From the NCBI RefSeq assembly GCF_040538665.1, contig NZ_JBEWXT010000001.1, positions 894,501 through 958,500 on the forward strand: DNA of 64,000 nt. Reading direction: 5' to 3'. Of this stretch, positions 17,030 through 52,158 are shown one piece after another. The DNA is from Aureibaculum sp. 2308TA14-22. GTDB lineage: Bacteria > Bacteroidota > Bacteroidia > Flavobacteriales > Flavobacteriaceae. The position numbers were made by a program, and so were the translations under genes. The notes under the pieces were generated by a model. The model saw only the letters and a list, made by a program, of their open reading frames with translations, was not told the origin of the DNA and ran no database searches. Within the stretch, counting starts at the first letter, position 1, and each line of letters begins with the position of its first letter.

Positions 17030-17186
17030 CTATCCCTCCGCCCTTTGTTCAAGAGAGGAACCAGTTCCCAACAAAGTAATAAGTAAAAATTATAATCTTT
17101 TATCTAAAATTTAAATGTTACTCAGTTCCCCTCTTGTGTAAAGAGGGGGATGAATTCTGCTTTTTTGCAGAAGAAAGGGGAGATAG
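17030..17186. repeat. Direct repeat copy A beside DUF559 gene 1
   Basis: A 157-bp element that begins CTATCCCTCCG and ends GGGGAGATAG, so its ends are imperfect inverted repeats. Inside are two hairpins: CCCCTCTT / AAGAGGGG around 17128-17150 and TTCTGC / GCAGAA around 17155-17174. The right two thirds are nearly identical to copy B at 17577-17755; relative to B the first part lacks about 22 bp, including one arm of a hairpin. It lies between rluD and the DUF559 gene. Confidence 0.85.
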
Positions 17187-17188
17187 TT

Positions 17189-17557
17189 TTATTGAGATTT
17201 ATAATTATTTCTAATTTCTTGCAAAACTGAAGGCAAGTAGTCAAAAACGAATTTATTTTCAAAACGAATTACGGTGTAACCTAAATCATTCAGATAGTTA
17301 GTTCTTTTTAAATCATACTCTTGAGCGGCAGTATTATTATGTACTTCACCATCCAACTCAATAATTAATTTTTCTGAAGCACAGTAAAAATCAACTATAT
17401 AATTTCCAATGCTATGTTGTCTAGAAAACTTTTTACCATCAAGTTGTTTTGCCTTTAAATACTTCCATAAAAAAACTTCTGCTGGTGTTAGATTTGACCT
17501 AAGTTTCTTTCTTAAGTTTAATAATTTCTTATTGTTATGGCCGTTTTTGTTATTCAT
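17189..17557 (-). CDS. DUF559 endonuclease-like protein (locus 1)
   Basis: A 122-residue protein of the DUF559 family, related to very-short-patch-repair-type endonuclease folds. Visible: a basic N-terminus, a TPAEVFLWKYLKAKQL segment, the core RQHSIGNYIVDFYCASEKL with an Asp, and IIELDGEVH with a Glu-x-Asp pair, the spacing expected for a PD-(D/E)xK-like active site. It lies between direct repeats A and B and is bordered by inverted ATAAAACTAT-type ends. A TATATTTG element (17571-17564, minus) lies only 7 bp before the ATG. A second copy is at 29858-30217. A role in moving or processing the flanking repeats is inference. Confidence 0.85.
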   Translation of the reverse strand: MNNKNGHNNKKLLNLRKKLRSNLTPAEVFLWKYLKAKQLDGKKFSRQHSIGNYIVDFYCASEKLIIELDGEVHNNTAAQEYDLKRTNYLNDLGYTVIRFENKFVFDYLPSVLQEIRNNYKSQ

Positions 17558-17576
17558 TCAAAACAAATATATAAAA

Positions 17577-17755
17577 CTATCCCTCCGTCCAGACTTATCG
17601 TCAGGACACCTCCCTTTTCACAAGGGAGGAACCAGTTCAGAATAAAATTACTAGTAAAATTATAACTTTTTTCTCTAAATTATAAATGTTATCTGGTTCC
17701 CCTCTTGTGTAAAGAGGGGGATGAATTCTGCTTTTGCAGAAGAAAGGGGAGATAG
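17577..17755. repeat. Direct repeat copy B beside DUF559 gene 1
   Basis: A 179-bp relative of copy A in the same orientation, on the 5' side of the DUF559 gene. It starts CTATCCCTCCG and ends GGGGAGATAG. It has a complete 8-bp hairpin CCTCCCTT / AAGGGAGG (17609-17629) that copy A has largely lost, plus the CCCCTCTT / AAGAGGGG and TTCTGC / GCAGAA hairpins shared with A. Confidence 0.85.
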
Positions 17756-18973: not shown

Positions 18974-20212
18974 TTACTTTTTTATAATTTTTTTTGTTCC
19001 CGAAATTCCTTTGTCATCTGTCACTTTGCAAAAGTAAAGTCCCTTATGCAATTCAGAAGTGTCAATTTTAATTAATCCATTTGAATCCGAATATGAAGAT
19101 ATTAACTGTCCGATATTATTAAAAATTTCTAGTTGAACAATAATAGAATTGGTTCTTATATGCAGATTTTTTGAGGTTGGAATAGGGTATAAAGATAAAT
19201 TAGTCAAGAAATATTCATTTGAATGAAGAGTTCTACAATTTTCTGTAAAATTAACTGAAGGCCCAAAGTTCGACAAAAACTCGACGTTATTTATATCATC
19301 AACACATACCGTTGATAAATTTGGCAGCAAAATAAATGGAGTTGCAGTAGGATCAGAATTGTCAAAATTATGATTATTACCATTTTTGAAATTGATGGAT
19401 GTTAAATTTTCATTAAATCCACATTCAATACGTATCAATGACATATTATTGCTTAAATCAAGAGTGGAAAAGTTATTTGAGGCACAATATAGCTCAATTA
19501 AAGATACATTGTTACTTACATCAAGATGTGAAATAGTATAGTTATAACCACATTGTAAATATGTTAAAGAAGTGTTATTACTTACATCAAGATTTGAAAG
19601 ATTATTTGAAGAACAATCTAAATATTCTAATGAAACATTATTTCTAAAATCGATGTTAGAAATCTCATTTCTTTCTAATCCAAGGGATTTTAACAATATA
19701 TTCTTGCTTAGGTCTAGGTTAGAAAGTTTGTTCCTACTACATGATAATGATAGTAAAGAGGTATTATTGCTCACATCTAGATTTGAAAGTTTATTATCTG
19801 CACATACTAAATTTGTTAAGGAGATATTATTATTTAGGTTGAGATCAATGAGGTCGTTATCCGAACAATTTAAATGGGTCAAAGATATATTGTTACTAAG
19901 ATCAAAAGTTGAAAGCTTATTTCCACGGCAATCTAATCGGATTAGTGCAGTAAAAGATGATATACCAACTAAGGACTCAATATCCCTATAAGTAATATAT
20001 AAAGAAGATATGTTTTGAGCTTCACTTAATTGTATTTCATTATCATTATTAATATCTATTGCAACCCAATTATCTGATAGGTCCTTTGCAATTAGATTTG
20101 TTTTAGTGGCTGATAACAATGTATTCTTGAACTTTTGATCTGGAATATTCACTGTTTGTCCATGAACAAACATTATATTAAATAACATGAAAATTTTTAA
20201 TAATTTTTTCAT
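18974..20212 (-). CDS. Leucine-rich-repeat surface protein with T9SS sorting domain
   Basis: A 412-residue exported protein. Signal peptide to about residue 19 (MFVHGQ). An N-terminal region holds a DINNDNEIQLSEA loop resembling a calcium-binding dockerin/EF-hand turn. Then come eight to nine 21-residue leucine-rich repeats (about residues 90-275) of the pattern L..L.CS.N.LS.LDVSNN.SL, with Cys at a fixed position. The C-terminal ~75 residues (LSLYPIPTSKNLHI, LEIFNNIGQLI, LHKGLYFCKV) form a type A T9SS sorting domain. It is probably a surface adhesin-like protein. Short inverted repeats lie 5 bp and 8 bp outside its ends, so it looks like the cargo of a cassette. Confidence 0.85.
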   Translation of the reverse strand: MKKLLKIFMLFNIMFVHGQTVNIPDQKFKNTLLSATKTNLIAKDLSDNWVAIDINNDNEIQLSEAQNISSLYITYRDIESLVGISSFTALIRLDCRGNKLSTFDLSNNISLTHLNCSDNDLIDLNLNNNISLTNLVCADNKLSNLDVSNNTSLLSLSCSRNKLSNLDLSKNILLKSLGLERNEISNIDFRNNVSLEYLDCSSNNLSNLDVSNNTSLTYLQCGYNYTISHLDVSNNVSLIELYCASNNFSTLDLSNNMSLIRIECGFNENLTSINFKNGNNHNFDNSDPTATPFILLPNLSTVCVDDINNVEFLSNFGPSVNFTENCRTLHSNEYFLTNLSLYPIPTSKNLHIRTNSIIVQLEIFNNIGQLISSYSDSNGLIKIDTSELHKGLYFCKVTDDKGISGTKKIIKK

Positions 20213-29787: not shown

Positions 29788-29809
29788 CTCCTCCTTTTTC
29801 AAGGAGGAG
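29788..29809. repeat. GC-rich hairpin, 3' side of DUF559 gene 2
   Basis: CTCCTCCTT (29788-29796) pairs perfectly with AAGGAGGAG (29801-29809) across a 4-nt loop. The segment from here to the gene (29810-29857) ends GGTGGTTAAACT, mirrored by TTAACCCC on the other side of the gene. Confidence 0.75.
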
Positions 29810-29857
29810 TGGATTTATGTGTGCGGTAGCAAAGCATAAAGACGAGGTGGTTAAACT

Positions 29858-30228: not shown

Positions 30229-30304
30229 TTAACCCCTCCGCCCATTAACTTGCTATTAAATTTAAAACTATCAGCTGGGCACCTCCCCTTGAAAAAAGGG
30301 GAGG
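30229..30304. repeat. GC-rich hairpin element, 5' side of DUF559 gene 2
   Basis: Starts TTAACCCCTCCGCCC (compare CTATCCCTCCGTCC in repeat B) and ends in a perfect 9-bp hairpin CCTCCCCTT / AAGGGGAGG (30282-30290 / 30296-30304). Position and sense relative to the gene match repeat B of locus 1. Confidence 0.75.
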
Positions 30305-52089: not shown

Positions 52090-52158
52090 TTTTATATTTT
52101 TTAGAAAATTTCAAAGACCAACATTCACGGTTTTCGTCAGAGGTTGATTTTGAGTGTG

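Follow-up and report, generated by a model that had tools for sequence, protein, structure and literature searches.

The DUF559 gene found in a 64,000-nucleotide stretch of the genome of Aureibaculum sp. 2308TA14-22 (the whole stretch analysed here, called the window) and the triplex-motif (TM) repeats beside it probably form one mobile element, in which a homing-type nuclease gene has triplex-motif ends and whose mobility and cleavage activity we infer. The element is best read as REP-RAYT-like in layout and as homing-endonuclease-like in fold and nested behaviour, with no tyrosine transposase. More tentatively, it may represent a bacteria-wide class of mobile elements, in which a homing-fold nuclease of the DUF559/YcjD type has triplex repeats as its ends, is the source and the spreader of the BoxC/PIT/TM repeats, and inserts both intergenically and, with no splicing involved, in frame within essential genes. 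The TM repeat class is already known, and what is new is its DUF559 partner.

The sequence-only reading had placed a 122-residue DUF559 gene between two direct, structured repeat copies, with inverted ends bordering the gene and with less hairpin material in copy A than in copy B, and all of this is borne out by the alignments, by the PF04480 match and by the two perfect inverted decamers (Table 1), which lie inside a 16-nt inverted repeat of 88% identity. Copies A and B share an ungapped core of 127 nt (80% identity) and are 84% identical over positions 33–179 of copy B. Both carry the end boxes CTATCCCTCC (at 17030 and 17577) and GGGGAGATAG (17177–17186 and 17746–17755), while the extra stem of copy B is missing from copy A, whose left hairpin is a broken remnant. 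The repeat consists of arms, each made up of a pyrimidine-purine hairpin and a distant box mirroring one stem, as in the right arm of copy B (R stem AGAGGGG, third strand GGGGAGA) and its left arm (Y stem CCTCCC, outer box CCCTCC). The outer boxes, whose mirror relation to the hairpin stems had escaped the sequence-only reading, are the third strands of predicted intrastrand-triplex motifs. No transposase was found between the window repeats, an Rfam search returned no family at the window repeat, and no certain target-site duplication was seen at the insert junctions, which were read by eye. Near the element, the minus strand at 18974–20212 encodes a protein that resembles leucine-rich-repeat proteins and ends in what looks like a C-terminal sorting tail (judged by eye), and an L19-Flavobacteria ribosomal protein leader (Rfam RF03130) is present at 52119–52146 of the window, also on the minus strand.

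Table 1. The two DUF559 genes of the window and the repeats beside them (positions are those of the window)
Feature	Position	Strand	Remarks
Repeat copy A	17030–17186		outer box CTATCCCTCC, broken left hairpin, AT-rich centre, right hairpin, third strand GGGGAGATAG
Triplex motif in copy A	17128–17183	+	Y stem CCCCTCT, R stem AGAGGGG, mirror third strand GGGGAGA
Inverted decamer ATAGTTTTAT	17183–17192		3' side of DUF559 gene
DUF559 gene, 122 aa	17189–17557	-	PF04480, E 1.1e-34; homing-endonuclease/Vsr-type predicted fold
Inverted decamer ATAAAACTAT	17571–17580		5' side of DUF559 gene
Repeat copy B, complete	17577–17755		outer box, extra stem 17587–17607, left hairpin 17609–17629, centre, right hairpin 17699–17719, third strand
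Left triplex motif of copy B	17584–17629	-	motif scan
Right triplex motif of copy B	17699–17752	+	motif scan
Triplex motif, 3' side of second DUF559 gene	29788–29847	+	motif scan
Second DUF559 gene, 119 aa	29858–30217	-	not seen in the sequence-only reading
C-rich box and hairpin CCTCCCC..GGGGAGG, 5' of second DUF559 gene	30233–30304		spacing too long for the scan, unscored

Scanned for triplex motifs, the window yields four, every one adjacent to one of its two DUF559 genes, and five mononucleotide shuffles of it yield none; the hairpins of the second gene occupy 29788–29809 and 30282–30304. The whole genome has five DUF559 matches, each of which has pyrimidine-purine hairpins on at least one side, and the match at C1:625018 lies in frame inside recG, within an open frame of 851 codons. 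Y1_Tnp/RAYT (PF01797) has no match in this genome, and RAYT was therefore rejected as the mobiliser of the window repeats. The pattern CCCTCN{3,14}GAGGG occurs 20 times in the genome against 3 times for the reversed pattern, and the 14 loci read, which hold 15 of the 20 matches, comprise seven solo motifs away from any DUF559 gene, three DUF559 elements (L303, L305 and L306, the third strand of L303 being unscored by the scan), three terminator-like loci and one coding locus. The pattern thus occurs in solo copies as well as in DUF559-linked ones. The full 157/179-bp copy has only four places in the genome, and it is the single arm, the triplex motif, that makes up the repeating unit.

Across genomes, a TM lies at most 300 bp away at 127 of the 149 non-redundant DUF559 loci, and on both sides of the gene at 82; motif orientation relative to the gene is mixed (58 inverted and 24 direct). 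The genes were collected by protein similarity, and E. coli ycjD was added by position; no gene was counted solely via the repeat search. The 195 DUF559 rows were reduced to 161 by collapse at about 88% identity, and 149 of these have full 300-bp flanks. Free-standing genes have a TM at 106 of 118 loci (67 on both sides), and DUF559 domains within frames of at least 300 codons at 21 of 31 (15 on both sides). Nested copies may be over-represented, as the 28 and 30 loci contributed by two of the protein searches were those of well-scoring matches. By source, a TM is present at 64 of the 69 loci from the best 80 of 552 confirmed stretches, at 27/37 from this genome and its relatives, at 22/27 from sampled Bacteroidota genomes (DUF559/YcjD being present in 222 of 392 of these), and at all 13 E. 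coli and plasmid loci (seven on both sides), which come from Cyanobacteria, Deinococcota, Alpha- and Gammaproteobacteria, with the plasmid loci drawn from 13 of 40 matching plasmid records. Viral DUF559 loci have a TM in four of seven cases, and in one of the three with full flanks in the main count. Among the controls, mononucleotide-shuffled flanks carry a TM at 0/149 loci and positions 1.5 kb from the gene at 1/77, the latter number being smaller because many loci are short. Control genes, from which too-short loci were dropped, have a TM at 0/28 GIY-YIG loci (of 30, larger proteins included), 0/29 RluD loci (own genome left out), 0/30 uninvaded host-gene pieces and 2/12 Y1_Tnp loci (of 13), where the motif is on one side.

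The sequence-only reading had accepted as refutation repeats in many genomes that have no DUF559 gene, or DUF559 genes that routinely lack repeats, and instances of both occur: 22 of the 149 loci, 11 of them nested, have no TM by the scan definition, and repeats are present in ycjD-negative E. coli and in one relative without any DUF559 gene (G016, 22 pattern matches). The tie is therefore a strong one with exceptions. Among 60 relatives, the excess of repeats correlates weakly with DUF559 number (Spearman 0.23, p 0.08), and it differs between genomes with at least two DUF559 genes and those with none (p 0.013). Four near-identical DUF559 genes are clustered at L077 (G010:C1:4829500–4837000), with GTCCCC..GGGGAC/AGGGGTG ends at most, and L079 has two further DUF559 genes.

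The type of motif goes with the DUF559 subfamily, as judged from sequence comparison. Over 135 motif-bearing loci, protein and motif similarity are only slightly correlated (r 0.12, against a largest value of 0.11 in 500 permutations). At all 18 testable loci, the motif is closer to that of a similar DUF559 gene in other genomes than to that of a distant DUF559 gene in the same genome, and the same holds at 13/13 testable loci, partly interdependent, once pairs whose outer flanks are homologous have been left out.

The BoxC/PIT/TM repeats were first described in the 1990s, and no mobilising gene is known for them. According to the main text of Holder et al. 2015 (PMC4666352), the repeats now named TM-ECO (formerly BoxC, PIT) are intrastrand-triplex repeats with triplex formation in vitro, reported for TM-ECO only, which in K-12 are always intergenic with no mobility gene near and around which variability is high; that text contains neither 'ycj' nor any word starting with 'nuclease'. 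No literature tying DUF559 or ycjD to these repeats was found in a search that most subscription journals lay outside of. In K-12, ycjD (1351407–1351760) is a DUF559 gene, and the motif 168 bp from it is the published TM-ECO no. 9 (1351239–1351204; TM-ECO table of PMC4666352). At its 3' end, ycjD overlaps with a further motif, a degenerate one, while the scan found no motif on its 5' side, so the E. coli copy, with both motifs on the 3' side, is not framed on both sides. In 60 evenly spaced records of 5393 matching ones, motif places have a median of 18 in the 37 ycjD-positive E. coli records (the ycjD place included) and of 5 in the 23 ycjD-negative ones, 8 of which have 12–16 places, these counts being confounded by phylogroup.

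In sequence, the DUF559-linked motifs have the same build as BoxC/PIT/TM-ECO, with a Y stem, an R stem and a third strand in mirror order, and they likewise occur as solo and inverted-pair copies, are polymorphic between strains and include E. coli no. 9 next to ycjD. They differ in that they frame DUF559 genes and also occur in frame inside genes. The exact TM-ECO pattern with its 3-nt second loop is present in the E. coli copy beside ycjD but not in the four window motifs, which have 18–31 nt between R stem and third strand.

DUF559 is also found in frame inside RecG, LeuS and MetH, as well as in UvrC, HsdR, HsdS and DNA-methylase-like genes, this second set of hosts being judged by eye from the surrounding protein. 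Counted as distinct sequences, the sites are full or short (uninvaded) in 4 versus 13 cases for RecG, 10 versus 21 for LeuS and 8 versus 11 for MetH, and the insertion points are loops variable in length and sequence. The ends of the nested copies belong to the insert and are missing at the empty sites; they contain no stop codons in the host frame and are translated palindromes. Two short LeuS sites (L133 in G007 and L180 in G042) carry a lone in-frame motif arm without the nuclease. By hand count, open frames of at least 800 codons with a DUF559 match below E 1e-10 make up at least 39 rows in the sampled Bacteroidota and 13 of the 67 rows of another protein-similarity listing. The empty sites that the sequence-only reading had expected in relatives are therefore present for the copies nested in RecG, LeuS and MetH, but elsewhere the candidates were unsuitable: the region downstream of rluD was not usable as an orthologous empty site, and fabI-sapF of E. 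coli was rejected as a clean one, with efflux genes there in the three ycjD-less records read (PMC12817139). In the LeuS of G035 (L141), another short palindrome, ATTATTGCCGAAGGCAATAAT, lies in frame at the same insertion point, and the LeuS loop may be a general acceptor of palindromic DNA.

In a tree of 60 of the free copies and 35 nested copies, the nested DUF559 domains fall into separate clades, one for each host site (support 99/98 for LeuS, 98/94 for RecG and 94/88 for MetH), while many forks are left unresolved by 123 columns for 95 rows. The LeuS host tree disagrees with the insert tree, and presence of the insert requires at least five changes that are forced by well supported branches. 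The host sequence of L337 falls among uninvaded relatives, while its insert groups with those of genus g1 (100/99), and L012 and L034 are sisters by LeuS host sequence, but their inserts are not. As far as sequence trees go, site-specific lineages together with host/insert conflict are the pattern of a homing element, with the clades applying to the nested copies and the conflict to LeuS. The clades by themselves would be equally compatible with ancient insertions that were passed on vertically and lost many times, and the LeuS conflict may come from transfer together with host flanks by recombination. Of the 128 free copies 124 retain residues D56, E67 and D69, as do 32 of the 33 nested ones, so nuclease activity seems to be under selection. 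The nested RecG copies of G007 and G010 had been considered dead (EIDV for EIDG), an assignment that was dropped as they keep all three residues.

The structure model of the window DUF559 protein has a mean pLDDT of 88.6. Foldseek placed ahead of all others 3hrl, an uncharacterised endonuclease-like protein (45% identical), followed by the homing endonuclease I-Bth0305I (3r3p, E 2.7e-4), with Vsr (1vsr, E 0.03) at rank 7. The model thus has a fold of the EDxHD/Vsr type, EDxHD being the motif name of the Vsr-type homing endonucleases. YcjD has already been placed in the PD-(D/E)XK superfamily, its profile having retrieved Vsr (PMC1189080). The DUF559 elements resemble homing endonucleases of this type (I-Bth0305I, the closest solved fold after 3hrl) in their nested copies with site-specific lineages and in the host/insert conflict at LeuS, but differ from them in that their ends are structured and also occur solo and that many copies lie between genes, and no intron or intein was recognised at the DUF559 loci read.

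Rickettsia palindromic elements are palindromic DNA lying in frame within protein genes, as are the nested DUF559 copies, and we know of no dedicated transposase and no nuclease gene for them. These elements, named in the text of PMC3733652, differ in sequence by a CGTC tag. According to the same source, the REP-RAYT system (REPtron) likewise has palindromic repeats flanking a small DNA-processing enzyme, solo copies elsewhere and a repeat type that goes with the enzyme subfamily, but DUF559 is a PD-(D/E)XK-type nuclease instead of an HUH/Y1 tyrosine transposase, and a third-strand box stands in place of the GTAG tag (PMC3733652). No GTAG tag was seen by eye at the hairpin feet, where the ends are CTATCCCTCC/GGGGAGATAG or C/G-rich boxes. 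The proposal that the nuclease acts on or spreads the repeats in the manner of RAYTs and REPs therefore stands with respect to layout (127/149 loci with controls near zero, solo copies, no Y1_Tnp in this genome), but not with respect to enzyme logic: the predicted fold is of homing-endonuclease/Vsr type, and the site-specific, homing-like behaviour inside genes had not been foreseen. The ShiLan domain, as described in the text of PMC11855218, is also inserted in coding genes without splicing domains and with the host frame left open, but its nuclease is of the HNH family, is found in phages and is read out of frame, and 'palindrom' does not occur in that text.

As a possible mechanism, the nuclease would cut or nick an unoccupied site, or the motif extruded as a hairpin or triplex, and repair of the break would copy the element, ends included, into the site. 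As the nested ends have no stop codons in the host frame, it is proposed that copies arriving in frame in an essential gene, at a loop that tolerates them, would survive, with the host protein retaining the insert. Solo motifs (BoxC/PIT/TM-ECO) would be ends left after gene loss, or non-autonomous copies spread in trans like REPs by RAYTs, and the nuclease may recognise the structured ends, which may also help to keep the frame open and may remain as solo repeats. The homing part of this scheme is suggested by the LeuS tree conflict, and recognition of the motif by the nuclease by their association. What speaks against the scheme is that 22/149 genes lack a TM, that motif orientation is mixed, that the E. 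coli motifs lie on one side of ycjD, that copy numbers correlate weakly and that motifs occur in genomes devoid of DUF559.

Four other explanations have to be weighed against a mobile DUF559/TM element. Triplex motifs might be passive hot spots that break DNA and attract insertions, with DUF559 genes merely landing there; the reported variability around TM-ECO sites (PMC4666352, main text) and the commonness of solo motifs agree with this. It is rather unlikely, as the small GIY-YIG genes of the same genomes have no TM (0/28) and Y1_Tnp genes few (2/12), nested copies bring their ends with them as part of the insert, empty sites lacking them, and motif type tracks DUF559 subfamily. Movement of the repeats by a different enzyme, whether RAYT/IS200-like or of another kind, with the nuclease as cargo or a passenger, would suit the REPtron-like layout and the Y1_Tnp genes in five of the seven other genomes searched alongside this one. 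This reading is improbable given that this genome has no Y1_Tnp match, that the Y1_Tnp genes of other genomes carry different hairpins and that the loci read show no further gene recurring between their motifs.

Little likelihood also attaches to DUF559 being a repair, restriction or defence nuclease, with the motif as its substrate and with no role in its spread. The predicted fold is Vsr-like, there is weak similarity to the defence-library models DpdF and methyl-directed restriction enzyme, and some plasmid copies adjoin methyltransferase genes; those of cyanobacterial plasmids at L349, L351, L354 and L361 are near PglX or DUF1156, so some may sit in defence islands. Against this, in-frame nesting, patchy sites and the host/insert conflict at LeuS are traits of selfish elements, and the window protein has no convincing defence-system match (best E 0.0026). 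That the hairpins are simply terminators or regulatory hairpins belonging to small genes would suit the three terminator-like loci among the 14 read, but is very improbable for motifs that lie on both sides at 82/149 loci, are absent from RluD flanks (0/29), occur in frame inside genes and keep the mirror third strand.

The link between DUF559 and TM joins two questions, the role of DUF559/YcjD and the ownerless BoxC/PIT/TM repeats, and makes them testable together. If the reading as a mobile DUF559/TM element is true, palindromic repeat systems would have a second enzyme class beside RAYTs, a route by which palindromic DNA enters protein genes without splicing would be suggested, and the variability around TM sites would have a cause other than triplex-driven breakage.

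Other repeats were seen beside other enzymes. GIY-YIG was rejected as a partner of the same repeat, as its loci have no TM and carry other repeats: several small GIY-YIG genes of the same genomes (L088–L112) are flanked, as read by eye, by repeats of the CGTCATTGCGAGG, TTCGAGTG and CTGAAACAAGTTCAG types, which is perhaps another nuclease-repeat pairing. Several Y1_Tnp genes of relatives (L118–L125) adjoin GCTCC..GGAGC or GCCCTGAAAGGGC hairpins, as expected of RAYT-type systems, and four equal-scoring GIY-YIG matches with a period of 377 bp are found at G010:C1:4923863–4925209.
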